IMG/VR virus record: IMGVR_UViG_3300032242_002633
Location: 1 to 38,558 of that record
DNA length: 38,558 nucleotides
Reading direction: 5' to 3' (one strand)
Origin: a virus
Below the pieces are notes generated by a model. It worked only from the letters and a program-made list of their open reading frames with translations. It had not been told where the DNA came from and ran no database searches. The position numbers and the translations under genes were made by a program. Positions 124 through 38,558 of the stretch are shown here, in pieces; within the stretch, counting starts at the first letter, position 1; every line of letters begins with the position of its first letter.

Positions 124-888
124 GGCATACCGCCAGGCGTCCCCGTCGATCTTGCGAGATGCGTTGACCAGGCTGTAGTTGGTTGGGTACGTGATGACCG
201 GCGCCGTGCCGTTCCCGTGCTCGTCTTGCACCAGGTCGGCGGGCATCACTAACCGAGGCTGTTCGCCCAACGTGACGTGGCGACTGGTCCGCTTGAGCGT
301 GACCCAGAGACCAACGGATTGCCGCCGGAATGGCTTGTTTTCGATCGGAATGTACGCACCGAGCCAGCCAACGGATTTGCCACCGATCGGCCACTCATAC
401 ACGACCTCGAGCTCGTCGAGAATCGGCTTGGCTTGCGTGCCGTACAGCCTGACCGTCACCGTTCCCGCTGGTGGTGTTCGCCAGTGGAACTGCACCGCAC
501 CGTTGGCGGGGATATCAACGCCTAGCTCGCCGGTCTCGTTGCTGTTGGCGTAGATGGGCGGACAAACCCCGATCTCGTTACCGTTGGCATCGACGAACGC
601 GACCAGAAAGAAGTACGAACCCGCCGGGATGCTCCCTCCGGTGGTCGGCGGGTCGATCCACGGCAGCGGCTCTGTCCAGTCCTCACACTGAACACCAACG
701 ACTCGCAGCGGCTGCCCATCGAGCGTGGCCTTCTGGCCTGCGCTGGCTTGCGGCAGGTAATCGACGAACCCCAGATCCGCGAGCCGGTCGCATGGCTGAT
801 CGCCAGCGGCCAGGCCGGCGACGAACAGCACGCGAACCAGTTCGCCGTCCTGGGTGATCTCGGCGTTCCGCAAGGTAAACTTAGCCAT
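1..888 (-). CDS. Beta-helix tail spike/fibre protein, N-terminal part (continues at 38435)
   Basis: The 5' 296 codons of a gene cut by the window ends; joined to 38435-37011 it encodes 770 aa. The ATG at 888-886 overlaps the stop of the upstream DUF3310 gene by 8 bp. Residues 1-70 form a short head. Residues about 80-165 look like an Ig/FN3-type beta domain. From about residue 255 there is the entry signature of right-handed parallel beta-helix proteins (Tyr-Tyr-Leu-Ser, then Asp-Asp-Ala-Asn-Asp-Gly followed by Pro-Trp-Lys-Thr-Leu). Such proteins are usually tail spikes that bind or cleave host surface polysaccharide. It lies between the lysis genes and the packaging genes. No catalytic residues can be assigned by eye. 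Confidence 0.8.
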   Translation of the reverse strand, partial: MAKFTLRNAEITQDGELVRVLFVAGLAAGDQPCDRLADLGFVDYLPQASAGQKATLDGQPLRVVGVQCEDWTEPLPWIDPPTTGGSIPAGSYFFLVAFVDANGNEIGVCPPIYANSNETGELGVDIPANGAVQFHWRTPPAGTVTVRLYGTQAKPILDELEVVYEWPIGGKSVGWLGAYIPIENKPFRRQSVGLWVTLKRTSRHVTLGEQPRLVMPADLVQDEHGNGTAPVITYPTNYSLVNASRKIDGDAWRYAATYYLSSSHGDDANDGSQGKPWKTLGKLFKAVPTQANIRVR

Positions 889-1192
889 GGGTGCGATGCT
901 TGCTCACGTGGGCTCGTAGCCGTTGGATGTAGTCGGCAGCCTTGTCGAGGTCTTGCTCGGGCGTGCCCTTCTTGTCGTACCTGGTCAGATACTTCATCGC
1001 GTTGAACCGAAGGGCACCCTCGAACTGCTCGGGGGTCATCGCCGCCTCGATGAAGTTGATGGACTGCGATCCGTCTCGCAGCAGGTAGTGTGCGGGGGTG
1101 TTGTTCTCACTAGCATCGGCCGAGATCACCTCCTCTCTCGCCTCATCAGATCCTGATGTGGCGGACACGGTTCGCAAGAAAAGAGCACTCAT
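881..1192 (-). CDS. DUF3310 family protein
   Basis: 103 aa. Residues about 33-95 fit DUF3310, a small domain common in phages and sometimes fused to nucleotide kinases: His-Tyr near the start, then INFIEAAMTPEQFEGALRFN, then MKYLTRYDKKG and an amphipathic C-terminal helix (DLDKAADYIQRL). The exact biochemical role of the family is not established; links to nucleotide metabolism are suggested by fusions. The ATG at 1192 was chosen because it overlaps the upstream stop as ATGA; a longer frame to 1354 exists but lies inside the protease gene. Its 3' end overlaps the tail-spike start by 8 bp. An early-type gene in a late operon is a little out of place. Confidence 0.75.
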   Translation of the reverse strand: MSALFLRTVSATSGSDEAREEVISADASENNTPAHYLLRDGSQSINFIEAAMTPEQFEGALRFNAMKYLTRYDKKGTPEQDLDKAADYIQRLRAHVSKHRTHG

Positions 1193-2010
1193 GAACTCAC
1201 CGGGGGGTTGGAATCGTCTCGTTGGTTCTCGGCCGGCGTGCGGATCACATAAGCCTCGCGCAGGTTCTGGCCTTCCCAGTGCTCGCGGGTGTACCAGGCG
1301 TAACCGTTCTGGCCCCACTTGGTTGTCCACGAGTTCTGCCACTTGATCGCCCACTGACCGTTCTTGAGCCGCTTAGCGCCGAGCCCCGCACAGATCGCGT
1401 GATTGCCCTGCCCCTTGGAGACTGGCACCACACCCTCGGAATCGAGATCCCAACCGCCAAAGCTCGGCACGCGGATCGAGATGTCGACGCCGCCCATGCG
1501 GAGCTGCACGGCCGACATGATCTGATCCCACGAGTCGAGCGCGATCCCCACTTCGGCTTTGAAGTTGGTGGCCACGTCGTAGGCATCTTTGGAGAGCCTG
1601 GTCGGGTTGATCGTGCCATAGGCGACCTGGCTCTCGGGAGCGAGGCCGGTCTTCTGGATCAGCGTGAGCGCCTCACCGATCGACGAACCCCGATCCCAGC
1701 CGCCGCACAAGATGGCATACGGAAACCAACCGCTGAGCGGAACATGGGGTTGCCCATGAAGCCAGCGAGCGAGTTCCATTGCCGTTGCGGTGGCGTGTCC
1801 GTTACAGGCTCCCTTGCCGTTCTGGTCTTTGACCGTGACGGGGAACCCGGGCTGAGTCGTAAGGTCAAACTCTCGCCATTGAGATTCCGGGATCACGGGC
1901 ACAGCAAAGTCACCCGTTGGTAGGACCGAGCCCATCAACGGAGCGACGAGACCCAACGGCCGGAAGTAGCCGTTCGTGTCCTTGTGGAACGGCAGGGGGA
2001 ACCCTGGCAT
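1189..2010 (-). CDS. Papain-family (C1A-like) cysteine protease
   Basis: 273 aa. All four elements of a papain active site are visible in the right order and spacing: oxyanion Gln63, catalytic Cys69 (QNGKGAC, six residues after the Gln as in papain), His204 (GNHAICAGLG) and Asn226 in QNSW, followed by a Gly-rich tail (WGQNGYAWY). There is no clear signal peptide or long propeptide; residues 1-45 are a short N-terminal extension. The ATG at 2010 overlaps the upstream stop as TAATG, which argues for coupled translation. Neighbours are small membrane or exported proteins upstream and the tail spike downstream. It could serve as the envelope-degrading enzyme at lysis, as a tail-borne entry protease, or in virion maturation. 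Protease assignment is strong; the role is inferred. Confidence 0.85.
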   Translation of the reverse strand: MPGFPLPFHKDTNGYFRPLGLVAPLMGSVLPTGDFAVPVIPESQWREFDLTTQPGFPVTVKDQNGKGACNGHATATAMELARWLHGQPHVPLSGWFPYAILCGGWDRGSSIGEALTLIQKTGLAPESQVAYGTINPTRLSKDAYDVATNFKAEVGIALDSWDQIMSAVQLRMGGVDISIRVPSFGGWDLDSEGVVPVSKGQGNHAICAGLGAKRLKNGQWAIKWQNSWTTKWGQNGYAWYTREHWEGQNLREAYVIRTPAENQRDDSNPPVSS

Positions 2011-2510
2011 TATTTGGCCCCCTTGAACTGCGTGATCGTGTCGAGGATCGCCTGGGGGTCGTTCCCCTTCAGCGCCTTGAGCACCTTGCCGGTCGCATCC
2101 TGGAACACACACACCGGAGCGTTCTTGGCGTGCTCCTCGAAGTGCCGACGAGCGATCTCGGCGTCACTGGCCGATTGGAGTCGCCACGAGACCGACTTGC
2201 CGTCGATCCTGGCTCTGAGCGGGGCGTGAGAGGTAACGGCAGCGTCGGCCACGCTGGGCGCGTCGGGCACGATGTACGTGACCCAGAGCGTACCGTCGAT
2301 AGGGCTCGGCGTCGGAACTGGCGGAGCTGGAGGTGGAACCGGGTTCGGCCCTGGCCCTGGTCCTGGTCCCGAGCCGGCCGGGATGCTGATCACCTTGTAG
2401 GGCTCGCCGTCGATCACGACCACAAGATGACGTGGTTCGCCCCCTTCCAGGTCGATCACCTGGATATGAGGAGCGTCAACGGCGAGCGTGAGCAACAAGG
2501 CGATCAACAC
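2010..2510 (-). CDS. Exported/membrane-anchored protein with Pro-rich linker, thioredoxin-fold-like C terminus
   Basis: About 166 aa if it starts at the GTG at 2510; a TTG at 2549 gives 179 aa but overlaps the upstream gene by 29 bp and has no ribosome-binding site. The N terminus is strongly hydrophobic (LIALLLTLAV), then a short beta-rich stretch, a Gly-Pro then Pro-Ala-Pro-Thr linker, and a C-terminal domain of about 90 aa. Its last part (NAPVCVFQDATGKVLKALKG) resembles the end of thioredoxin-like domains but has no CxxC pair. It is translationally coupled to the protease (TAATG at 2010). It may be an envelope-anchored partner of the protease; function is not known. Confidence 0.6.
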   Translation of the reverse strand: MLIALLLTLAVDAPHIQVIDLEGGEPRHLVVVIDGEPYKVISIPAGSGPGPGPGPNPVPPPAPPVPTPSPIDGTLWVTYIVPDAPSVADAAVTSHAPLRARIDGKSVSWRLQSASDAEIARRHFEEHAKNAPVCVFQDATGKVLKALKGNDPQAILDTITQFKGAK

Positions 2511-2520
2511 GGGTACGGTC

Positions 2521-2844
2521 TCACTGAGCGGGAGGAGCGGGAGGGGCAACCGGAACAGTCAAGGCATTGAGTGCATCGATCTGGGCCTGGAGGCTGGCGA
2601 CGTCGGCATCGGCCTGGGCCTGCACGGCCTGGTTGGCGTCGATCTGGGCCTTGAGGGCAGCGATCTGAGCAGACTGGTCTGCAAGCTGGGCAGACTGGCT
2701 CTTTACCAACGAGGTCACGTTGGCGATGGAGGCAGACAAGTCGTTCAACTTCTGGGACACGGTCACGTCGGTATCCTTGGCGGCAAGTACCACCAGCAAA
2801 AGAACAAAAGCGAGAAACGCCAGAGCGGCGTACAGGGTGTTCAC
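2521..2844 (-). CDS. Small membrane-anchored coiled-coil protein (spanin-like candidate)
   Basis: 107 aa. One N-terminal transmembrane helix (LYAALAFLAFVLLLVVLAA, residues about 4-22) is followed by a long Ala/Gln-rich coiled coil (residues about 30-95) and a Pro-Ala-Pro-Pro tail. The start is GTG, overlapping the upstream stop as GTGA; no separate ribosome-binding site is visible. The architecture (N-in anchor plus periplasmic coiled coil) resembles inner-membrane spanin subunits of phages of Gram-negative hosts, and the location in a block of membrane proteins beside a protease agrees. Sequence alone does not prove it; a tail-tip or holin-regulator role is also possible. Confidence 0.6.
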   Translation of the reverse strand: MNTLYAALAFLAFVLLLVVLAAKDTDVTVSQKLNDLSASIANVTSLVKSQSAQLADQSAQIAALKAQIDANQAVQAQADADVASLQAQIDALNALTVPVAPPAPPAQ

Positions 2845-3200
2845 AGGAGGATCGGGATCACGATTTCAGCCGCCTTGAGCAACCATGCGGCGAGCTTCAA
2901 GGCGGTCGCTGGCGAGATTGGGCAGGGCATCGCCATCAGGCCCGGCGGCACTTCGCTTGTGTCTAGCAACGCCATCGCCTCTTCGTCCGTCAGCGGGCCA
3001 GGGCGATCCGCGAAAAAGTGTCCCTTGTCGGACCCTTCCAACGTCACATGGAGAGCCCAACCAACCAAATCGTAAGCCGAGTGAGCGAGCTGCAGACGAC
3101 CCGCTGGGCTGTTGGCTGCCCCGTCCTTGATCACGGACAGAGCGTCCAGCATGGCGGCGGCGGGGAAGTCGGATCGGAACGGTGTGTGTTCAGCGGACAT
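2841..3200 (-). CDS. Hypothetical protein with C-terminal hydrophobic helix
   Basis: 119 aa; ATG at 3200 with AGGTGA upstream. No family recognised. The first 90 residues are mixed alpha-helical and acidic; the last 25 (ALKLAAWLLKAAEIVIPILL) form a hydrophobic, possibly amphipathic helix with two lysines that could insert in a membrane. It sits between the HTH gene and the coiled-coil membrane protein and overlaps the latter as GTGA, so it belongs to the same late transcription unit. A tail-anchored lysis accessory is conceivable. Confidence 0.55.
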   Translation of the reverse strand: MSAEHTPFRSDFPAAAMLDALSVIKDGAANSPAGRLQLAHSAYDLVGWALHVTLEGSDKGHFFADRPGPLTDEEAMALLDTSEVPPGLMAMPCPISPATALKLAAWLLKAAEIVIPILL

Positions 3201-4131: not shown

Positions 4132-4177
<46 letters not shown>

Positions 4178-4197
4178 CTCAAAACCCTGTATTAAAG

Positions 4198-4289: not shown

Positions 4290-5477
4290 TTACGATGCAC
4301 TCACACCGGATCCGTCCGGTTTAACTGGTTCGTCCGGCTTGGTTCGTTCGATCGCCTTGCGAATGTCGGAATCTTCGACATGGGCATAGGTGTCCATCGT
4401 CAAACTGATCGTCGAGTGCCGAGCCAGGGTTTGAGCCTCCTTGGGATTGGCGCCTGACTGAATCAAATGGGTGATGAACGAGTGTCGGAGTGCATGGCCG
4501 TCCAGCACTTGCCCGTCCTTGTCGATGTACGGGATCCCGGCGCGCTCGAGGTCTCGTTGGAGTAACGTCGCCAACTTGTCGAACTGCCAGAGCGGCTTGC
4601 CGGGTGGTTTGCCCACCAACCAGTGCGCCAGCTTGTCGGCCAGGTCTCGGCGGATCGGCTGCCGGGCCTCTTTCTTGTTCTTGGTGTAACCAGCCGCGAC
4701 CCGGATCGACGGGAACTGGTCGTTCAGGGAGAAATTCTCGGGGGTCAGGATCCGCAGCTCGCTCGCCCGGAACCCGGTCCCCATGGCCACCCGGTACAGC
4801 ATCGCCCGGTCAAGCCCGGAGAGCGGGATCTTGTTGTGCTTGCTCTTGGTCGGTCCATAGGTGTACTCGTCGGGTCCGGCCTCGGTCGTGGCCAAGAGCT
4901 TGTCGAGCTCGGGTTTGGTGATCGCTCGCCGGACCCGGCGGCGGTCGACCCGTTGGTTGAACGGCTTGATCGCGCCCAGGCCGGCGGGTTGCTCTGAAAG
5001 CCGCGACTCATCGCCCAGCCATTTGATCCAGCCCAAGATTGCCGTCCGGGCATGATTGGCGGTGCGGGCGCTCCGGGTTTCCCGGAGCTTGCCCAGCGCC
5101 AGTTGTAAACGGGTCGCCTGGTGCATCTGGGCCAGACTGGTGATGCCGGCCAGTTGTAACAGGCGTTTAATGGCTCCGATGGTCTGGTTGATGTGTTTCA
5201 GACCATCGTGTTTGCTGACGAGATGGGCGCGGTAGTCATCCAGGTGTTCCTTGAACGGCCGGGTTGCCGCCGTGCGTGCAATCCGGTCGGACGATCGGGT
5301 CACTCCCTCACGGACCAGCAGCTCCTCGGCCTCTCGCTTCTGAGCGATCTGGAGCGTCTGGGCCTTGTTGATCGTGCCCTTGGCTCGTTTGGTGCTGCCG
5401 TCGGCAGCTTTGAACCCGTACCAGTATTCCGGCGAGAGAGAGCCGTCTTTCTTTTTCCGCTTATACACGAACGCCAT
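4290..5477 (-). CDS. int: Tyrosine site-specific recombinase (integrase)
   Basis: 395 aa. Catalyses integration and excision at attP in the tRNA-Lys core beside it. The N-terminal part (1-60) is a basic, AP2-like arm-binding region, about 70-165 a SAM-like core-binding domain, and about 185-375 the catalytic domain. The active site is complete: Arg237 (GTGFRASEL), Lys266, His328 and Arg331 (HALRHSF), His354 (ARHSTI), nucleophile Tyr364 (MDTYAHV). The ATG at 5477 was chosen because GAGGAGG lies eight bases upstream; a start at 5498 lacks one. It overlaps the excisionase-like gene by 17 bp, giving a xis-int order at the end of the early transcription unit. Confidence 0.95.
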   Translation of the reverse strand: MAFVYKRKKKDGSLSPEYWYGFKAADGSTKRAKGTINKAQTLQIAQKREAEELLVREGVTRSSDRIARTAATRPFKEHLDDYRAHLVSKHDGLKHINQTIGAIKRLLQLAGITSLAQMHQATRLQLALGKLRETRSARTANHARTAILGWIKWLGDESRLSEQPAGLGAIKPFNQRVDRRRVRRAITKPELDKLLATTEAGPDEYTYGPTKSKHNKIPLSGLDRAMLYRVAMGTGFRASELRILTPENFSLNDQFPSIRVAAGYTKNKKEARQPIRRDLADKLAHWLVGKPPGKPLWQFDKLATLLQRDLERAGIPYIDKDGQVLDGHALRHSFITHLIQSGANPKEAQTLARHSTISLTMDTYAHVEDSDIRKAIERTKPDEPVKPDGSGVSAS

Positions 5478-5706
5478 TGTGAGTCGCCTCCTCGGCAATC
5501 CAACGGTTCACGGTACTCACTCGCCAGCGTGGATCTTGCCCTGGCGGAAGGTCTGATGGCGGGAACGGGTGGTCTGGTCTACTCCGCAGCATTTTGAATG
5601 CCGTGAGCTTGTAGCCCAGGGCGGTGGCCACCTCGATGGGCGTTAGTAACTGATCCAACCCAAGCGGTAGATCAGCACGACTAGGCGCAGACTTCGTTCG
5701 AGCCAT
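5461..5706 (-). CDS. Excisionase-like MerR/AlpA-type HTH protein
   Basis: 81 aa. Residues 20-72 match the small winged-helix of AlpA/excisionase proteins: LTPIEVATALGY opening, a short helix, then RWRVSTVNRWIAEEA, where a Trp-containing final helix is typical. It would bind attachment-site arms to favour excision or act as a regulator. ATG at 5706 has GAGG upstream. Its 3' end overlaps int by 17 bp and its 5' end overlaps the preceding gene by 26 bp, so the three are co-translated. Confidence 0.75.
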   Translation of the reverse strand: MARTKSAPSRADLPLGLDQLLTPIEVATALGYKLTAFKMLRSRPDHPFPPSDLPPGQDPRWRVSTVNRWIAEEATHNGVRV

Positions 5707-7644: not shown

Positions 7645-8139
7645 TCACTCGTGTGCGTTGATGGTCAACACGCCGTTGCTCACCGTGTAGACGCCAGTCC
7701 CTGCCACGCCAGCAAAGTCGCCGGTTGCGTCTGTGATCGCGTAATTGCCAACGCTCCCATCTGGCAACGTGACCACACTGGCCGTGATCGTGCTGCCGTT
7801 GGCGGTGGCAATCGTGAGCGTCCCCGCTTGCCCCTGCGTGACCAGGGCCACGTCTACGGTGTAGCGGGTGCCGGCAATGGCCAGCGATCCGGTGCCGGCC
7901 TGTGTCGTGGTCACGCTGTTGAGGGTGGACGTTGGCGCGTCGAGCGTGATTACGCCCTTGATTAGCGTGCCCGTGTGGTGAGCTTGCGTCGGCTCATGCG
8001 GTGCCCGCTCTGCGTGTGGCCGAACGTGGGCGTGCCGTGGTGCGTGGTGCACCGGCCTGTGATGCAAGCCGCTTAAAGATTCACGGGTTTCGAGTGCGTT
8101 GACGGTGGGGGCGAAGTGTCGTTTTCGTGTGCGTTGCAT
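7645..8139 (-). CDS. Exported planctomycete-style protein, possible lysogenic-conversion factor
   Basis: 164 aa. The N terminus is basic and then reads ALETRESLSG, closely like the Leu-Glu-x-Arg-x-x-Leu-Ser segment near the N terminus of many exported planctomycete proteins. Residues about 25-57 are extremely His-rich, possibly metal-binding. The rest is Thr/Gly/Ala-rich beta structure with no Cys. Start ATG at 8139 with AGGA upstream. It sits in the early transcription unit among regulators, not with virion genes, so a protein exported by the infected cell or lysogen, such as a surface-exclusion factor, is more likely than a virion part. This is inference from location and motif. Confidence 0.6.
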   Translation of the reverse strand: MQRTRKRHFAPTVNALETRESLSGLHHRPVHHAPRHAHVRPHAERAPHEPTQAHHTGTLIKGVITLDAPTSTLNSVTTTQAGTGSLAIAGTRYTVDVALVTQGQAGTLTIATANGSTITASVVTLPDGSVGNYAITDATGDFAGVAGTGVYTVSNGVLTINAHE

Positions 8140-15720: not shown

Positions 15721-16200
15721 TCAGTCGGCGGAGGGATCAAGCTGCCGGACCTCAATGCCGAGGGCCTTGGCGATCTTTTCCAGGGTGAGGTGGGTGGCGG
15801 AGTGTTCGCCGTTTTCCAGGCGGCTGATGTGGCTCTGGGTGAGGCCGGTTTTCTTGGCCAGGTCGGACTGCTTCAAGCCGGCCGCCTTGCGGTGCTTCTG
15901 AATCTCGCCGCCCACATACTTGACCAGCTTGGCCAGGCCGCCGGGCATCGGTTGATCGTCGTCTAGCGGCATGGCCTGGGTGCGCACAGGCACCTGGGCC
16001 AAGATCTCTTCCATGGCCCGGACGATCTCGGCGGTTTCTTCAGCGCCGCTGGCTTCTTGTAGGGCCTGAAACAGTTCAAACAGGTCTTCGCGGTCGGCAC
16101 GCGGAAGCGAGCGGATGCGATCTAGGATGATCGAGAGGGCCAAGACGATTGGCTTGGCTTCTGCCGGCAAATCGGTGACGAATCGCAATTCTTTCAGCAT
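15721..16200 (-). CDS. HigA-like XRE antitoxin
   Basis: 159 aa. The C-terminal third is a Cro/CI HTH (IQKHRKAAGLKQSDLAKKTG, then TQSHISRLENGEHSAT, LEKIAKALGIEVRQL). The N-terminal 90 residues are acidic and helical (PRADREDLFELFQALQEA) and probably neutralise the toxin. It follows the toxin gene by 35 bp in the toxin-first order characteristic of higBA. As usual for such proteins it would also repress the shared promoter. It is longer than most HigA proteins (about 90-130 aa). Confidence 0.75.
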   Translation of the reverse strand: MLKELRFVTDLPAEAKPIVLALSIILDRIRSLPRADREDLFELFQALQEASGAEETAEIVRAMEEILAQVPVRTQAMPLDDDQPMPGGLAKLVKYVGGEIQKHRKAAGLKQSDLAKKTGLTQSHISRLENGEHSATHLTLEKIAKALGIEVRQLDPSAD

Positions 16201-16235
16201 CTGCTAGACCCATCATGGGAACGAGGAGTGGCGGA

Positions 16236-16688
16236 CTAGGTGAGGAACTTTCGCTTCCGGTTCCTCATCAGAATCTTGTCATGGACGGGCGTGGCGCCGT
16301 CGGCTTCTTTTTTGAGAGCGCCCAGGATGACGATGGCCCGCCCTGGGTGATGAACGAAGTAGTAAATGCGGACATTGAGACGGTTCAAGATCCCGCCTTT
16401 GTCCCGGATTTCATGAAAATCCTCGATGGCCCGCACGTCGACCGTCTGGCTGTGTGTGGGATCATCTTGTCGGGCCAACTCTTTGACCTGAAGCGCCAGG
16501 TGGGCGTACTGGTCATCGTTGAGAAACTCCTTGGCCTCACCGTAGACCCGTTCCAGCAGAATCACGTTCCATTGGTAACCAGGAGGTGGTCCTCCGCCTT
16601 GCCGAACTCCAATCCTTGGGGATGTTTCCCTGGGTTGTCGTGCCACGAAGTGCTCCAGATTGGCCAGGGAGGTTTCATGCCGCGACAT
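16236..16688 (-). CDS. HigB/Gp49-like RelE-superfamily toxin
   Basis: 150 aa from the ATG at 16688; a longer frame to 16955 runs through the upstream terminator and is rejected. The last 60 residues fit the HigB/Gp49 pattern: a strand with basic residues (GGILNRLNVRIYYFVHHPG), a hydrophobic strand (AIVILGALKKEADGATP), and a basic C-terminal helix (IHDK-like, MRNRKRKFL). Such toxins cut mRNA on the ribosome. Residues 1-60 are an unusual Pro/Gly-rich extension. It has its own promoter and precedes its antitoxin. Stabilisation of the prophage or anti-phage defence is the likely benefit. Confidence 0.72.
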   Translation of the reverse strand: MSRHETSLANLEHFVARQPRETSPRIGVRQGGGPPPGYQWNVILLERVYGEAKEFLNDDQYAHLALQVKELARQDDPTHSQTVDVRAIEDFHEIRDKGGILNRLNVRIYYFVHHPGRAIVILGALKKEADGATPVHDKILMRNRKRKFLT

Positions 16689-16692
16689 TGAA

Positions 16693-16720
16693 TATATACA
16701 ACGCCAAACAAGAAAAGCAA
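16693..16720 (-). promoter_or_regulatory. Promoter of the toxin-antitoxin cassette
   Basis: On the minus strand TTGCTT (16720-16715), a 16-bp spacer and TATATA (16698-16693). The start codon at 16688 is only five bases from the -10, so transcription would begin at or very near the ATG. No ribosome-binding site is seen, consistent with a leaderless mRNA. Confidence 0.55.
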
Positions 16721-16792
16721 GGGCAACAAACGCAAGAAAACCAAAGCCAAGCGATACGTGATCCCAAAAATATACAAATCCCTGGGGCGCAT

Positions 16793-16821
16793 AAAAACGC
16801 CCGGCGCAACGAGCACCGGGC
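16793..16821 (-). terminator. Rho-independent terminator of the late/virion operon
   Basis: On the minus strand a 9-bp stem GCCCGGTGC/GCGCCGGGC (one G-U pair) with a 5-base loop is followed by TTTTT. It ends transcription about 140 bp after the last virion gene (stop at 16959) and so isolates the toxin-antitoxin cassette. Nearly the same sequence is found at 15676-15704. Confidence 0.78.
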
Positions 16822-16958
16822 ACTTCAAGGTGTGCCGCCCACTCGGAACATAAGCGGCACGATATCGAGTCTATCGATCCCCCTGGGGTGTGCCAAGGGG
16901 AGAAAGTGCCGGGCATCTCACCCCGGCCTGGGTGTGGCTGTGTCCGTCGCCCCACGTG

Positions 16959-31265: not shown

Positions 31266-32513
31266 TCAGGTACCGGCCAGACCAGTGACCTGGCACACGG
31301 TGGACTCACGGGTCACGACGTACGCGGCCCTGAAACTGGCCCGAATTCGCTGAACACCGTTCAGGAACTCGCTGGCGTGCGAGTTGGTCGTGTCGAACGT
31401 GATGCCGCGCCGGTAGTGCAGCTCGTGGTACATCGTGTCGGTCACGATCGCGTTGGTGGCTGTGAGGTACGTGCTAGTGACAATCGGCAGCCCCCACACG
31501 CGAGGCGAGACCGCGTCACCAGGATTACCCAGCAGGTACCAGCCAGCCGAGCGGATCGACCGCAGGTTGGTCCAGTCGGTCGGGTTCATGAGAATAACGT
31601 TGGGATTGGCGAACGCCGTGTTGGCCACTTTGTTGATGCCCTGGAGCAAGGCATCGAAGTCGGAGAGCGAGCCCTTCGCCTGGGTCTGCTTGTTGGTCAG
31701 GTTGGTCATACCCCGGAAGTTGGGGGCACTGGCATCGCCAATCAGGAGCTGGCGATCCAGCCGCTGACGGAGACCCAACGTCAACCGGCTCTGGATGTAG
31801 TCACGCGCACCGGGCACGTCTTCGAGCTGCTCGTCGGTCGCAGGCAGCGTGACCGCCACCTTGTTGACCGGCGTGGTCTGCTCGGTGAGTGCAAACGCGG
31901 ACTCGGGATAAGTCCCGTTTTCCGACGTTTCGGCCGCGTTGTTGGTGTACGTGGTTTCCAGCATCCACTTGATCGAGTTGTTGGTCGTCTCGAACATGGG
32001 GATGAGGTCGGCGATCACCGGCTGCTGCTGCGCCGAGGTGATGTAACCGGGCAGACGCTGGACGAACGGTGCCCAGCCCGCGCTGGTGGCGAACAGGGTC
32101 TTGATGTCCATATCAAGATAAACGTCGAGAGCCGCCTTGCGGTTAGCCTTGCGTTCACCCTGCCATGCCTTGTAACTGTCGTTTTCAATGAACAGGTCGC
32201 CAACGCTCTTGATGGCGTTGCGGCTGCCGTAGGACTGCATGTCCTCGACTCCGGCACCGTCCCAGCCGCCGAAATGCGGCCGAGAAGGAGCGTTCAAGCT
32301 CTTGAGAGCCTCGCTGTTCTCGTGCTTGAGCTTGTCGGCTGACTTCAGGGCTTCCGCCTTGGGGCAGATGTCATTGAGAGCATCGTTGAGGCTCTTGACC
32401 TCTTCGAGCTTCTCGCGAGGCAGGTCTTCGAGCGGACCACTGGCGAAGATGGCGGCGATCGCCTCTCGCTTGGTCTTGATCTGGCCTTCCAGATCCTTCA
32501 GGGAATCAGCCAT
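31266..32513 (-). CDS. Major capsid protein, HK97 fold
   Basis: 415 aa. Residues 1-105 form the charged helical delta/scaffold domain normally removed by the prohead protease (LKDLEGQIKTKREAIAAIFA). The shell domain follows with family landmarks: ETTNNSIKWMLETTYTNNAA in the E-loop region, GLRQRLDRQLLIGDA, and the A domain NPNVILMNPTDWTNLRSIRS, PRVWGLPIVTS. ATG at 32513, overlapping the protease stop by 8 bp. Length and order (portal, protease, capsid) are those of HK97-type phages. Confidence 0.93.
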   Translation of the reverse strand: MADSLKDLEGQIKTKREAIAAIFASGPLEDLPREKLEEVKSLNDALNDICPKAEALKSADKLKHENSEALKSLNAPSRPHFGGWDGAGVEDMQSYGSRNAIKSVGDLFIENDSYKAWQGERKANRKAALDVYLDMDIKTLFATSAGWAPFVQRLPGYITSAQQQPVIADLIPMFETTNNSIKWMLETTYTNNAAETSENGTYPESAFALTEQTTPVNKVAVTLPATDEQLEDVPGARDYIQSRLTLGLRQRLDRQLLIGDASAPNFRGMTNLTNKQTQAKGSLSDFDALLQGINKVANTAFANPNVILMNPTDWTNLRSIRSAGWYLLGNPGDAVSPRVWGLPIVTSTYLTATNAIVTDTMYHELHYRRGITFDTTNSHASEFLNGVQRIRASFRAAYVVTRESTVCQVTGLAGT

Positions 32514-33327
32514 GGATTACACCCGCAATGCGGGCCTCCGTTTGCAGGAACTTTGCATACAAAACCTTGGCTTCGATCGGGTCGACATCCTTCGAGAGCA
32601 GCAGATCAAGGGCGTCGCGCATCGCCTTGATTTCTTGCCGCTTCGAGGGGCCGAGCTTCACGAAACCGCTTGCCGCCCGTTCCAGGTCGGAAACCGCCCG
32701 CAGGGCACGATCAAGGAACTTCTGGGAGGTACCCTCCTTTGGTTCCTTGGCTTCGTCTTCTTCTGATTGATTGAGGTCGTTGTCGCCGTCGTCGTCGGGA
32801 TCAATCAGGCTTTTGAGGCTTACCACGCTTGTCCTCGGCTCGGCTGGCGTTGGTGTGATCGAGCAGTCCAGGCCCAGGGGCCAGGAGAGAACCTTGTGTG
32901 ATCCGTTGGGTTGTCGCTCACGTCGTACGCGGTGCGATGCCGTGCCGGTGCTCCATCCCATCTTGCCCTTGGCGATGGCCTCGTCGTGTAGCTTGCGTTC
33001 GTACTCATCGCGGAGCGCGAGCTGGCCTTCCACCCACACACCAACGTCGTCGACCTTGAACTCACCTTCACCAAGCACCCGGCCCATGAGCGGGTTGGCC
33101 TTGCCACTGATCTTGGCCAGGTCGTGGTGGTACAGGATCTCGGTACCGGTCTTGAGTCCACGGCCGAAGTCGGTCGCTGCCGTGAAATAGTCCTTGAGGC
33201 TGGACTTGTCAGGCTCGTTGGCGGTACCGAAGCGTACGGCATAGCCGCCGATCCGGCCGTTGGTGCCAACGCTCTTGATCTCGCCGCCCGGGTAGATGAG
33301 TAGGCTGTCGTCAGGCTGCCGAGTCAT
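32506..33327 (-). CDS. HK97-family prohead protease (S78)
   Basis: 273 aa from the ATG at 33327 (GAGGAG seven bases upstream). The catalytic features are visible: His in LYHHDLAKISGK about residue 70, Ser in GWSTGTASH near residue 125, then LDCSITPTPAEP. The first 150 residues are the protease; the remainder, acidic then helical (DLNQSEEDEAKEPKEG), may act as internal scaffold. It processes the capsid delta domain and overlaps the portal gene by 17 bp. Confidence 0.9.
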   Translation of the reverse strand: MTRQPDDSLLIYPGGEIKSVGTNGRIGGYAVRFGTANEPDKSSLKDYFTAATDFGRGLKTGTEILYHHDLAKISGKANPLMGRVLGEGEFKVDDVGVWVEGQLALRDEYERKLHDEAIAKGKMGWSTGTASHRVRRERQPNGSHKVLSWPLGLDCSITPTPAEPRTSVVSLKSLIDPDDDGDNDLNQSEEDEAKEPKEGTSQKFLDRALRAVSDLERAASGFVKLGPSKRQEIKAMRDALDLLLSKDVDPIEAKVLYAKFLQTEARIAGVIHG

Positions 33328-34744
33328 TGGTGGTCTCCTCTTCATCGACCTGGGGGTTCTTCTCGTTGGTTTCAGCGTTGGCATCACCGTCAGGATCTTG
33401 CCCCGGCCCTTGCCCTGGCGTCATGGACTGGCGAGCCACTTCAGTCAGCCGTCGCGTTTGCTCTTCGGCCTCTTCCAACGGGCTCAAGTCACCACCCGGA
33501 ACCGGTGGCAAGCCGACCTCGTTCCTGGCCTCGTTGAGCGTGGCGATTGGCCCACGGCCTGAGTCGGTGCGGAGCTGCACGGCGCGCGTCACCTTGTCGT
33601 TGGCTTGTTCGGCCAGGGCGTCGATCTTGCGTCGGTCCCAACGAAACTCCAGGCCATCGGTTGCCGGAAAATGCGGGAGCAGGTGCTGGGTCAAGGTTTC
33701 GGCCATCAAGTCTTGCATCGGCACCAGCCCGTTGAGCCATGCCATCTTTTGGGCCTGCTCAAGGTTGCTGTAGGTGCGTGCCGAGTCGCCGGCCGGTAAG
33801 CCCGTTACCAACGATGGGACGCCCAACATGGCGGACACGATCGCCTCGGGCCGGTCGAGGATCCGATCCAAGGCCATCTCCTCGGGCCCCATACCGAGAT
33901 CGACCAGGTCGAACGGGATCGTCGCCACATCGACCGAGCCGGCCCCTTCGCCAACGTAATTCATCCTGAACTTCCGCCGGGCTGCGTTGGCCTCGGCCTC
34001 TTCCAACGTGGCCCCCGATCCGGCATCGCTGGCGACCGTGCCGATCTCCTTGGGCACAAGTAGCTTCCCGGCGTGACTGTTGCGAAGCACCGCCGCCGTG
34101 TAGCTTTCGGCAGCGTTCAGGCCGGCGATCGACCGGATCGCTCGCTTGAGTCGCGAGAGGCCCATCACAGGGCGTACAGGGTCGATGCCGTCGCGGAAGT
34201 GAATGATCTGTTCCGGCGGGTACGGGATCACACTGCCATCGAAGCCGCGATACAGGTAATGGTCGATCGGCACACTGCGCGAGCCGTAGACCTGCATGTG
34301 AGCGTTGGGAATCCAGTAAATCTCGAACGGCGAACCACCCGCGATCAACCAGAAGGCGTTGCCGTCGACCTTGAGAGCGTCGCACGTCGCCCCCCAGGTC
34401 TGTCGCCACGTCCACCATGGGTTGGGCTGACCGTTGACCACGTCGAGCGCGGGGTGCTTTTCGACCGCTTCAAACTCGCCCGTCTCGTCGTTGCACGTGC
34501 CGAGTTGGAGCCGAGCCGTTGGAAAGTTGTCGCGGATCCAGGCGAGGCAGACGGCCACCGTCGCGTTGTCGCTCAGGTTGCCGGCCAACCTGGCGTAGTC
34601 CATTTTGGACTGAGGCGGTAGAGGGGCTGGAGCACTGGGGTCGAACCAGCCGCCCCAGCCGGCGATACCGGTGGGCGCAGCCTTGGCCGCTGTCGTCCCG
34701 CTCGGTTGCCAAAGTGCGGTCCAGGCGTTGGCGAATCGTCCCAT
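33311..34744 (-). CDS. Portal protein, HK97 type
   Basis: 477 aa; ATG at 34744. The core signatures of phage portals are present: HPALDVVNGQPNPWWTWRQT, VDGNAFWLIA, PYPPEQIIHFRDG, GLSRLKRAIRSI, and the late helices (DRILDRPEAIVSAMLGVPS). The C terminus is acidic and Gln/Pro-rich. It makes the dodecameric vertex through which DNA is packaged and released. It lies between terminase and protease as usual. Confidence 0.92.
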   Translation of the reverse strand: MGRFANAWTALWQPSGTTAAKAAPTGIAGWGGWFDPSAPAPLPPQSKMDYARLAGNLSDNATVAVCLAWIRDNFPTARLQLGTCNDETGEFEAVEKHPALDVVNGQPNPWWTWRQTWGATCDALKVDGNAFWLIAGGSPFEIYWIPNAHMQVYGSRSVPIDHYLYRGFDGSVIPYPPEQIIHFRDGIDPVRPVMGLSRLKRAIRSIAGLNAAESYTAAVLRNSHAGKLLVPKEIGTVASDAGSGATLEEAEANAARRKFRMNYVGEGAGSVDVATIPFDLVDLGMGPEEMALDRILDRPEAIVSAMLGVPSLVTGLPAGDSARTYSNLEQAQKMAWLNGLVPMQDLMAETLTQHLLPHFPATDGLEFRWDRRKIDALAEQANDKVTRAVQLRTDSGRGPIATLNEARNEVGLPPVPGGDLSPLEEAEEQTRRLTEVARQSMTPGQGPGQDPDGDANAETNEKNPQVDEEETTNDSAA

Positions 34745-34755
34745 TGTGTTGCGTC

Positions 34756-36123
34756 TCAGAGAAAGAGGCGAGAAGCTGTGCGTTGCAAGCCGTTAAAGGC
34801 ACCACTGGCCGCGTCGACCTGGTCGTCGTGCGAACCGCGAGGAAAGGATTCGAGCTCTTCGATAAATGCCGCGTTCCAGGGGGCTCGCACGATCTTGACG
34901 TTGCCACCCTCGGCTTGACTGGCGAGCGGATCGGCTCGCACGTCCTTCGATCCTGTGCTGGGCACCGCACGCACAGCGAACCCGCTCAGGAGCTTCACGA
35001 ACGCGAGTGCCTGGTCCTTGCCCGCCGAACCTGGTTCCTGCTCGCCCAGTACCGTCACACCAACGCCATCGAGCTCGGCGGTCTGGCGAATGATGCGATC
35101 ACGGTCACCGGAGGCCCATCGGCCGCGTCGGATGTCCTCGATGTAATACGAGCCATCCTTGGCTGCGATCTTGGCCCCGACGGTCCAGTCGCCAGCCCCT
35201 TCCGTTGCGGCCCTGTCCCAGTAACGCACCCGGCGAGCGTCGGCCGGTGCAGCGTCGACGATTTCAAACCAGGCTCGCTTGAAGAACCCGCCGTCACGGG
35301 GCGTTGGTCGTTGTTGATACAGCGAACTCCACCAAAACGGCCCCTGAACGGACTTGATGCGGTTGAGAGCTTTCTCGTCGTACCGTTCCGGCCAAAGAGC
35401 TTGCCCAGGAGCTCGGCCCAGTGGGTCGTCTTTTTCGGCCAAAGCGGGGAGATTGAGCACGTCCCATACTTCGTCGCTGTCGGCCTGGGCGTTGGCAAGT
35501 ACCCGGCCGGCGAGATCGTCAGCGTGCCAACGTGTTTGGATCAGGATGATTGAGCCGTTAGGTTCAAGTCGTGAGTAAGCCGTCGAGGTGTACCATTCCC
35601 AGGTTTTCTCCCGGAACGTTGGCGAGCTCGCCTGCTCGGCATTCTTCACCGGGTCATCGACAATCAGCAGGTCGGCACCTTTTCCGGTGAGCGCGCCGCC
35701 CACGCCTGCTGTTTGCATCCCGCCGCCATGCTTGGCGATCTCCCAACGATCCGCCGCTGTCGATCCTTCGCTGAGTCGCACGCCGAACGCTGGATCTCCA
35801 AACACGCTCAGCAGGTCGCGAACCTTTCGCCCCCACTGGCTCGCAAAGTCGGCCTCGTAGGACGCGAGCATCACCCGCCGCCATGGCCATGTCCCCAGGT
35901 ACCACGCCAGGAAATACTTGCTCGTGAACTCAGACTTCCCGTGTCTCGGTGGCATGCTCACCATGAGCCGCTTCGTTCGACCCGCTGCCACTTCGCAAAG
36001 TTTCTGATTCAGTAACGCCAGGTGATCCGGGCACACCCAACGGCCCCGGCTCGCCAGCCTCGCGAATCCCGCCGGAGTTCGTCCCGTCAGTCTGAGCGAG
36101 GCGTCTGTCGAGTTCACAGGCAA
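34756..36123 (-). CDS. terL: Terminase large subunit
   Basis: About 455 aa. The packaging motor: ATPase with Walker A PPRHGKSE (residues about 58-65) and Walker B DLLIVDDP (151-158), coupling motif near 195 (IILIQTRWHADDL). The nuclease domain has acidic residues in RYWDRAATEG and HDDQVDAASGAF. The start is uncertain: the first in-frame candidates are TTG 36123 or GTG 36117, and neither has a ribosome-binding site. The conserved WVCPDHLALLNQ segment shows that at least residues 29 onward are translated, so an out-of-frame overlap of at least about 110 bp with the terS gene is real. Confidence 0.93.
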   Translation of the reverse strand: MPVNSTDASLRLTGRTPAGFARLASRGRWVCPDHLALLNQKLCEVAAGRTKRLMVSMPPRHGKSEFTSKYFLAWYLGTWPWRRVMLASYEADFASQWGRKVRDLLSVFGDPAFGVRLSEGSTAADRWEIAKHGGGMQTAGVGGALTGKGADLLIVDDPVKNAEQASSPTFREKTWEWYTSTAYSRLEPNGSIILIQTRWHADDLAGRVLANAQADSDEVWDVLNLPALAEKDDPLGRAPGQALWPERYDEKALNRIKSVQGPFWWSSLYQQRPTPRDGGFFKRAWFEIVDAAPADARRVRYWDRAATEGAGDWTVGAKIAAKDGSYYIEDIRRGRWASGDRDRIIRQTAELDGVGVTVLGEQEPGSAGKDQALAFVKLLSGFAVRAVPSTGSKDVRADPLASQAEGGNVKIVRAPWNAAFIEELESFPRGSHDDQVDAASGAFNGLQRTASRLFL

Positions 36124-36415: not shown

Positions 36416-36700
36416 TTAGTACCACTTGTTCTTGTCCGCGTCGTAGATCCGCAAGGGAGCCTTGGGGTTTGCGTTCCGCTCTTTGTCGATCGGGTCCGAC
36501 TCGCGGATCTGCACCCACATCGTGACGCACTTGTGGCACACCGGATAACGCCAGCGGTCGGAGTTGTCCGGGTGCATCCAGCCCATCTTGGCCAAGTTCA
36601 CGGGCGCGCCACACAGGCCGCACGTGTACCGTGGCGGCATCAGGCCGCAGGTACCGGCGGGAGCGAGCTCGCCGTCGGAGCCTGTCCAGTCCGTAGACAT
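36416..36700 (-). CDS. Small zinc-ribbon protein, packaging region
   Basis: 94 aa. CGLCGAPVNLAKMGWMHPDN and CHKCVTMW form a zinc ribbon resembling the scaffold of HNH proteins, which commonly precede terminase genes. However, the His-Asn-His catalytic set is not clear, so nuclease activity is doubtful. It may help packaging. Overlaps the holin-like gene by 61 bp. Confidence 0.6.
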   Translation of the reverse strand: MSTDWTGSDGELAPAGTCGLMPPRYTCGLCGAPVNLAKMGWMHPDNSDRWRYPVCHKCVTMWVQIRESDPIDKERNANPKAPLRIYDADKNKWY

Positions 36701-37008
36701 GCTGGCTGGCCGTTACCGCCTGGGTCCAAGGGGCAGTAACCAATCGAGGCCATGCGCTTGTTGTTCGCCTCGGCGGTTTCCAGCTCGCGAATCTTTTCGG
36801 CCAGCCCTTCGTGTTCCACCTTGCTGGCCTGGAGCGCGAGCCACCGCAAACCGATTTCGTGAGCCGCGCGCACCAGGAGCAGAGCCAGGGCGAGCACTGA
36901 ACCCCAGATGCCAACGGTGCCCGGTGCCGCCTGAGCAAACAAGCCGCCCAGACTCGCGCAGGCAATCCCGATCCCGGTGATAGCGTTGGCGTGGGTGTCA
37001 GGGTGCAT
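36640..37008 (-). CDS. Two-span membrane protein, holin-like
   Basis: 122 aa from the ATG at 37008; a GTG at 37014 adds two residues and overlaps the tail-spike stop as GTGA. Two hydrophobic spans (AITGIGIACASLGGLFAQAA; WGSVLALALLLVRAAHEIG) are followed by a charged coiled coil (KVEHEGLAEKIRELETAEAN) and a Pro-rich end. Two close spans plus a charged tail agree with class II holins. Placement next to the tail spike and packaging genes, away from the other membrane proteins, leaves alternatives. Confidence 0.5.
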   Translation of the reverse strand: MHPDTHANAITGIGIACASLGGLFAQAAPGTVGIWGSVLALALLLVRAAHEIGLRWLALQASKVEHEGLAEKIRELETAEANNKRMASIGYCPLDPGGNGQPACLRTGQAPTASSLPPVPAA

Positions 37009-37010
37009 GG

Positions 37011-38558
37011 TCACTTGGCTCCCAGGGCGGTGAGGAGTGTTTGAGCCGCTTCAATCGTAGAACGCAAGTAGGCGATGAGAGGCTCGAAGGCAATCGGGGG
37101 CAAGGGCTGTGGCGTGGGCGGTAGTGGCTCAGGTGTGGGCGGTACCGGCGTTGGTATAGGGGCAGGAGTTGGATCTGGCTGGCCGGGTGCAAGTTCGACG
37201 CTATGGGCATCTAACCCCGCGTATGCTTGCCAAGTCGCAAACGAGCCCGTTGTCAGTGCAGACCAAACGTATGCGTCCTTGGCCACCGTCGCTGTGTATA
37301 TGTTGCGATCCCAAGTGATTTTGGTGGCGTGGCCAACACTCACCGGCTTGAGACTCACGTTCCTGAGCGGGTTGCCTCGGTAGTCCTTCGCCTGGTTGTT
37401 CACTCGGTTGTCAGTGACGGCCAGATAGCGAACGGGAAGCTGATTCCCGATACTGAGATCGCCCCCGTTGTCGGATCGCTCGTTCCGCACCGCGATGGCG
37501 TCGGGTACGTAGGCACCTTCGCTGTTGTGATGGAACGAATGTAACCCGTCGTAGTTCACGCACACCTGACGTTTTTCGTTGAACCCGCCAATCGCTCCCG
37601 TGTGGTTGCCGTCGTGGATCGCCACCGGTCCCCAACTCGGAGCCGGGCTCACGATGTGGTTGTACGTGCCCTGGTTCTCGAAGATCGCCCCGCAGAGCAT
37701 GTGGGTGTCATGCGCCGAGTAGCCTGAGACGTTGCCGTCGAACACCGAGTCGACGCACACACCGCCGCCGCGCTGCTGCACGCCAGAGAGCCCGTTGTTG
37801 CGGTACCGGCCCTCGTTGATCAGCGTCTGCCGGGTCATCTGGGCCAGATACACGCCGTGACAGAAAACGTCGTTGTCTTTGGGCGTTGGCGTCTCGCCGT
37901 CATACCGCCACCCGCACTGGTCGAATACGCAGTGTGAGATCAGGAAGTCGCCACAATGGGCGATGAATAACCCTTGGACGTGTGCCGGGTTACTTGGGCT
38001 CGTGTGGACGTTCTGGACCGTCACCTGGTACAGAGCGTTCTTGATCGGTGCCAATTTCTGAGCCGATCCGTACGAGCCGATTAACTGCACGTTATCGAAC
38101 AGACAGTTAGCCAGAACCACGTGATCTTGTGGCCCGCCTGCTGGCCAGACTGGACCCTTGCAAGAGTCGCCTATCGGACCCTGGAACTTGAGATCCAGGA
38201 AATACTGAAAAGGTGCGTCAGCAGCTCGGCCCGTACGGCTATCGGCCTGCCGGAACCAGTTGCGGAGCCCGTTGGGATCGGGAGCGTTGCTCGTGTCGCC
38301 CATCAAAACGGGTTGAGACTTTGGGTCGACCCCGTAGTCCTTGTTCCAATACGAGTCGTAAACGGTCGGCTTGCCCAGGCTGCCGTAGTACGCTGTCGTC
38401 CAACTCTCGAACGGGAAGACGTCGCCACGAAGGAACCTCACGCGAATGTTCGCCTGAGTGGGTACGGCCTTGAACAACTTGCCCAGCGTCTTCCAGGGTT
38501 TGCCCTGGCTGCCGTCGTTGGCATCGTCACCGTGGCTCGAACTCAGGTAGTACGTCGC
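37011..38558 (-). CDS. Beta-helix tail spike/fibre protein, C-terminal part (starts at 888 across the junction)
   Basis: The 3' 516 codons of the same gene, with the 123-bp overlap repeated here. The frame is open to the right edge, so the internal Met at 38477 is not the true start. The body has repeated short beta-helix rungs with His/Asn/Cys-rich turns (for example FLISHCVFDQCGW and MLCGAIFENQGTYNHI), typical of a pectate-lyase-like solenoid. The C terminus changes to a Pro-Thr-Pro linker of about 35 residues and a short helical end (LIAYLRSTIEAAQTLL). The Pro-rich linker resembles those in the proteins at 2010-2510 and 16959-18155. The holin-like gene starts 2 nt after its stop. Confidence 0.8.
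   Translation of the reverse strand, partial: ATYYLSSSHGDDANDGSQGKPWKTLGKLFKAVPTQANIRVRFLRGDVFPFESWTTAYYGSLGKPTVYDSYWNKDYGVDPKSQPVLMGDTSNAPDPNGLRNWFRQADSRTGRAADAPFQYFLDLKFQGPIGDSCKGPVWPAGGPQDHVVLANCLFDNVQLIGSYGSAQKLAPIKNALYQVTVQNVHTSPSNPAHVQGLFIAHCGDFLISHCVFDQCGWRYDGETPTPKDNDVFCHGVYLAQMTRQTLINEGRYRNNGLSGVQQRGGGVCVDSVFDGNVSGYSAHDTHMLCGAIFENQGTYNHIVSPAPSWGPVAIHDGNHTGAIGGFNEKRQVCVNYDGLHSFHHNSEGAYVPDAIAVRNERSDNGGDLSIGNQLPVRYLAVTDNRVNNQAKDYRGNPLRNVSLKPVSVGHATKITWDRNIYTATVAKDAYVWSALTTGSFATWQAYAGLDAHSVELAPGQPDPTPAPIPTPVPPTPEPLPPTPQPLPPIAFEPLIAYLRSTIEAAQTLLTALGAK
38436..38558. repeat. Terminal direct repeat, right copy (circular overlap)
   Basis: Exact copy of bases 1-123. Together the two copies show that the molecule is circular or circularly permuted, as for an excised prophage circle or a headful-packaged virion genome. 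The tail-spike reading frame stays open to the last base and resumes in phase on the left. Confidence 0.95.

Follow-up and report, generated by a model that had tools for sequence, protein, structure and literature searches.

Does a phage that encodes a papain-type protease next to an exported protein and small membrane proteins use that protease to lyse its host? The question is raised by the window studied here, the whole 38,558-nucleotide stretch of IMG/VR virus record IMGVR_UViG_3300032242_002633. A first-pass annotation of this DNA proposed that the protease is an envelope-lysis enzyme acting in place of an endolysin, and argued that this would suit the unusually protein-rich envelopes of planctomycetes.

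Organization of the locus

The contig carries an exact 123-bp repeat at its two ends, leaving a unique length of 38,435 bp. The repeat indicates that the contig is circular and hence that the phage genome is complete. The genes around the protease lie on the minus strand in the order 3200–2841, 2844–2521, 2510–2010, 2010–1189, 1192–881, 888 across the origin to 37011, and 37014–36640, followed on the circular map by the genes for terminase, then portal, S78 prohead protease and capsid. The features that matter for the argument are as follows.

2841..3200, minus strand: 119-aa protein with a conserved C-terminal hydrophobic helix (TM at residue 101); holin/pinholin candidate
2521..2844, minus strand: 107-aa protein with an N-terminal TM and a periplasmic coiled coil (TM prediction); spanin-like (i-spanin/Rz-like) or holin candidate
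2010..2510, minus strand: exported partner, 166 aa, GTG start; hydrophobic N-terminal export signal, small β domain, Pro-rich linker and C-domain
1189..2010, minus strand: papain-family (Peptidase_C1) protease, 273 aa from its ATG (Pfam PF00112); proposed lysis effector
881..1192, minus strand: DUF3310 protein (Pfam PF11753), directly 3′ of the protease gene
888 wrapping to 37011 (1–888 plus 37011–38435), minus strand: 770-aa β-helix-like protein, spanning the arbitrary contig ends
36640..37014, minus strand: 124-aa membrane protein between the cassette and the terminase (TM prediction); further holin candidate
34756..36123, minus strand: terminase large subunit (Pfam Terminase_6N and 6C), downstream of the cassette on the circular map
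32506..33387, minus strand: prohead protease (Peptidase_S78), the maturation protease (Pfam PF04586, E = 1.6e-5, above the cut-off; PHROG head maturation protease)

The first four genes (3200–1189) form a cassette in which the first pair overlaps by 4 nt and the last pair overlaps as TAATG, so that the stop codon of the exported partner (2010–2510) overlaps the protease start, an arrangement of translational coupling. The coupling of the protease to an exported Pro-linker protein reported in the first-pass annotation is therefore borne out, as is the presence upstream of a coiled-coil membrane protein (2521–2844, N-terminal TM) and a tail-anchor candidate (2841–3200, C-terminal TM). The longer frame 1189–2112 is simply an upstream extension of 1189–2010. 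The 770-aa β-helix-like protein has a Pro-rich C-terminal region and a 40% identical homologue in the viral locus L002, and is probably a tailspike.

The protease and its exported partner

The protease matches Pfam PF00112 with E = 1.4e-10 and 42 bits (curated cut-off 20.7), without a competing family, and no wall-binding domain is recognisable in it. Its Gln-Cys-His-Asn site is intact, as first reported: Gln63, Cys69, His204 and Asn226 are present and are retained across homologues in 81/81, 81/81, 81/81 and 80/81 sequences, respectively. Relative to the L002 homologue, the protease shows a dN of 0.167 and a dS of 2.35. Structure prediction across 1189–2510 returned a papain fold for the protease (AF2 pLDDT 87, pTM 0.86) and a thioredoxin fold for the C-domain of the partner (AF2 pLDDT >90; Foldseek matches to thioredoxins). 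To our knowledge, papain/cathepsin C1 proteases such as xylellain have no phage or lysis role. Xylellain (PDB 3ois) is the top PDB match of the protease model, with which it has the fold and catalytic residues in common at about 20% identity, and the top PDB matches listed are C1 proteases. Judged by sequence and modelled fold, the enzyme is of the classical C1 type (cathepsin/papain/xylellain), not CHAP or NlpC/P60, and its predicted activity is proteolysis.

Despite the thioredoxin fold of the partner, a conserved CXXC is absent from an alignment of 32 sequences. The window protein also lacks the lipobox Cys expected of an o-spanin, which is an outer-membrane lipoprotein; its G296 homologue carries an LAGC lipobox. 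The exported gene lies 5′ of the protease gene in all but two truncated loci, and the two genes overlap by 1 or 4 nt in 67/80 cases. A profile of the partner built from 32 members picked it out at all protease-bearing loci of another locus set, which overlaps the first in part. In one variant pair (L321:7085–8523), the exported protein has the same N-domain joined to a different C-domain and the protease is a distant papain relative, which suggests matched swaps of partner and enzyme.

Small membrane proteins at the cassette

The 2521–2844 protein has the layout of an i-spanin by prediction, with an N-terminal TM followed by a periplasmic coiled coil, and homologues occupy the same place in L002 and L004. 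Its weak match to a PHROG Rz-like spanin (E = 1.6e-4) is probably inflated by coiled-coil bias. A profile of the 119-aa protein matched five viral records, of which 5/5 carry the protease, and the 36640–37014 protein has a 38% identical homologue in L003.

Small TM genes (≤150 aa) cluster around the protease. Across 55 loci, 88/95 of them lie within −3/+1.5 kb of it, compared with a mean of 30 and a maximum of 55 in a random-anchor control (2,000 draws), a contrast that overstates independence because the viral loci are related. A blind query with a two-TM, 69-aa holin-like protein matched 78 loci, and in 53/55 of those with enough downstream sequence the protease follows 1.4–3.4 kb downstream. 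In one lineage, the membrane-gene cluster 5′ of the protease includes an exported staphylococcal-nuclease-like gene (L041:4676–5191, L043:2904–3374 and L050:951–1544).

The cassette behaves as a module

The protease profile was searched against IMG/VR (best 80 of 90 loci). More than 80 viral loci, some with identities as low as about 40%, repeat the exported–protease pair, and this recurrence argues that the pairing is not due to chance. The cassette lies just upstream of the terminase in the window and in two further genomes, G001 and G002. The terminases and portals of these three phages have no detectable similarity to one another (those of G001 and G002 were named from position and sequence), and their cassettes are related, with identities of 72–80% for the protease, 45–86% for the exported protein and 42–58% for the coiled-coil protein. 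A second lineage, the larger one, has the pair between the portal gene and the MuF/S78/capsid genes, with several small membrane proteins encoded ahead of it. Tail-fibre genes are found near the cassette in several lineages.

Two neighbouring genes in the window were weighed as possible parts of the cassette and set aside: in L004 the DUF3310 gene is away from the protease, and L002 has the β-helix gene at another location with the cassette still together. The DUF3310 protein (881–1192) is probably outside the lysis function. One MuF-like head protein (L091:2135–3949) contains an apparent intein (Hint-like) insertion at a conserved HPGC motif.

Some planctomycete genomes carry the cassette

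A protease profile search of genome contigs found no relative, and planctomycete genomes were therefore reached through CsrA and whole-genome searches. These yielded a protease relative in 15/398 genomes of the class. The Planctomycetes-typical PSD1 domain is present in 18/18 examined genomes (3–87 copies) and in 0/14 controls. The CsrA encoded by the phage itself (6876–7067) has its best genome matches mostly in Planctomycetota.

Several of the chromosomal copies lie in prophages. In G110, the portal is 14 kb upstream and the exported–protease pair ends the tail module, after which comes a host-type gene. The cassette is upstream of the terminase in G079 and G310, and in G054 the order is protease, two membrane genes, terminase (these three terminases were recognised by sequence and order). 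G380 carries a protease-bearing element twice on its chromosome (L181 and L182), the copies being about 99% identical over >8 kb, and G114 has two relatives of the window phage on separate contigs. The copies in G103 and G336 are outside obvious prophages. In G376 (L170:6948–8558), a signal peptide, the exported-protein domain and the papain domain are fused in one 536-aa ORF.

Searches for a peptidoglycan hydrolase

The first-pass annotation recognised no peptidoglycan hydrolase in this genome, and profile searches agree. None was found in the window by Pfam (best 25 of 39 families), NCBIfam or PHROGs (30 proteins), and neither the tape measure nor the tail proteins gave a match to a lysin concealed within them. 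Nor was one present among the Pfam families listed for seven other complete protease-bearing genomes, where the search covered genes without a window homologue (best 25 of 29 and best 25 of 31 families) and returned packaging, capsid, tail and replication families. These seven have exact terminal repeats of 33–127 bases, the shortest in G010, whose completeness is the least certain. Because the Pfam results comprise the best 25 families, a very divergent lysin may still be present, and Phage_lysozyme, Peptidase_M15_4 and SLT were searched directly; they gave no six-frame match in 32 protease-bearing records, the window included. Amidase_2 had no match in 37 records, 31 of which carry the protease.

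The weight of these absences depends on how readily lysins are detected in planctomycete phages. Ten planctomycete prophages that lack the protease also yielded no hydrolase in 147 selected ORFs (Pfam, best 25 of 31 families), and one of the ten does hold a lysozyme that the ORF selection missed. The missing lysins are accordingly weak evidence, and lysozyme was adopted as a better control in place of this uninformative one. Lysozyme is detectable in planctomycete prophages, in 16/398 genomes of the same class, and in several of these the lysozyme gene is about 21–23 kb away from a portal gene and has neighbours that are Rz-like or encode small membrane proteins. A gene-for-gene swap of lysozyme and protease in similar prophages was not demonstrated, as the lysozyme prophages share few head genes with G110.

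A proposed holin–protease model for lysis

The best-supported reading of genes 3200–1189 is a holin–protease lysis cassette, which we consider probable. A role in lysis is indicated by the position of the genes, their behaviour as a module, the holin-like neighbours, the exported partner and the absence of another recognisable lysin. Strong comparative support comes from the clustering of holin-like genes with the protease, from the movement of the unit between unrelated packaging modules and from its position upstream of the terminase. We infer a lysis function, a division of labour and release through a holin. In this model, a temperate phage of planctomycetes would lyse its host with these genes, the small membrane proteins supplying the holin and spanin-like functions. 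The exported protein, with its thioredoxin fold, would wait in the periplasm as the partner of the enzyme, acting as an anchor, an activator or a substrate guide. The holin would let the cytosolic papain-type protease out, and the released enzyme would cut the peptide component of the envelope, bursting the cell. Comparative genomics thus backs the lysis-type cassette proposed in the first-pass annotation; its further claim that the protease stands in place of an endolysin is unproven, since the enzyme could cleave peptidoglycan peptides.

What the protease would cut divides the model. Under purely proteolytic lysis, it would destroy a protein layer that bears the load of the envelope, the partner would act as its periplasmic receptor or activator, and no peptidoglycan hydrolase would be used. 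We regard this as possible but rather unlikely. Planctomycetes have peptidoglycan sacculi and lysozyme disrupts their cells (PMC4432640), which means that proteolysis by itself may be insufficient and leaves the original argument from a protein-rich envelope insecure. The same observation lends some weight to an endolysin reading, in which a papain-fold enzyme has been retargeted to peptidoglycan and cuts peptide bonds in the stem or cross-link as its CHAP and NlpC/P60 relatives do; this is a sub-case that overlaps the holin–protease model. Papain-fold enzymes include peptidoglycan hydrolases (PMC10318531), mycobacteriophage Lysin A contains a papain-family N5 domain (PMC3314691), and in BFVD matching papain-type domains occur in phage proteins named 'peptidoglycan binding-like' or 'N-acetylmuramidase' (judged by protein name). 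The classical C1 sequence and fold, and the lack of any visible wall-binding domain, point the other way, and we hold retargeting to be a tentative option.

A virion-associated tail protease that cuts a surface protein at entry, together with the nearby β-helix or tail-fibre proteins, would account for the 770-aa β-helix gene close by in the window and for LamG-type tail fibres near the cassette in other lineages. We consider this role unlikely. The obligate partner carries an export signal, which does not suit a component of the virion. In addition, the cassette is intact in L002 with the β-helix gene elsewhere, and it shifts relative to head and tail genes while the membrane genes remain with it.

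An accessory envelope protease serving superinfection exclusion, host take-over or lysogenic conversion also seems improbable to us. The G103 and G336 copies outside obvious prophages and the fused secreted form in G376 indicate that the pair can work outside phages, but the cassette is found in many unrelated phages, in the late region by the terminase and with holin-like genes, where no other lysin is recognisable. Prohead maturation, suggested by a phage-encoded protease close to packaging genes and named in the first-pass annotation as a role that would refute its proposal, is very unlikely, because a separate S78 gene (32506–33387) lies between portal and capsid in the window, S78 is present in relatives too, and in the window lineage the cassette is upstream of the terminase, not between portal and capsid.

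Relation to known lysis systems

The putative holin–protease cassette resembles the lambdoid-type lysis cassette (holin, endolysin, Rz/Rz1) in lying upstream of the terminase, in its small TM proteins, its N-TM coiled-coil protein, its exported Pro-rich protein and its one soluble enzyme, and in moving as a module. It differs in having a papain-type protease of family C1 as its enzyme and a thioredoxin-fold exported partner that lacks a lipobox in the window, and in that its holins are putative. The PeiW and PeiP enzymes of methanogen viruses belong to a different family from the C1 protease. They have pseudomurein endoisopeptidase activity (PMC4592898) and are likewise cysteine-type peptidases used as viral lysis enzymes for an unusual wall; their wall polymer is pseudomurein (an isopeptide bond is cut), and they have no such partner protein.

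In the papers covered, a literature search found no description of this cassette. The expectation that a protease in phage lysis would be new nevertheless stands only in part, because Lysin A of mycobacteriophages (PMC3314691), a lysis enzyme, already includes a cysteine peptidase domain of the papain family. There, N5 is one domain beside an amidase or muramidase and wall-binding domains; here the enzyme is stand-alone with a separate exported partner. As lysis by dsDNA phages is generally held to depend on a peptidoglycan hydrolase, a widespread cassette built on a stand-alone papain-type protease with a dedicated secreted partner would be a departure. If the cassette does act in lysis, it bears on the old question of what keeps the planctomycete envelope together, offers candidate lysins for bacteria whose cells are difficult to open, and provides an annotation marker for lysis modules missed by current libraries.

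Other features of the window

A tRNA-like 3′ half at 4135–4190 with the anticodon loop CTT (tRNA-Lys) lies beside a tyrosine integrase gene (4290–5498, minus strand) and is probably the attP of a temperate phage that integrates at a tRNA. At 15721–16955, an HTH protein adjoins a RelE/HigB-like ORF with a TM, a possible toxin–antitoxin pair. The protein encoded at 7645–8139 has an N-terminal motif of planctomycete type (FxPxxxxLExR) and is 82% identical in L002, where most other genes differ.
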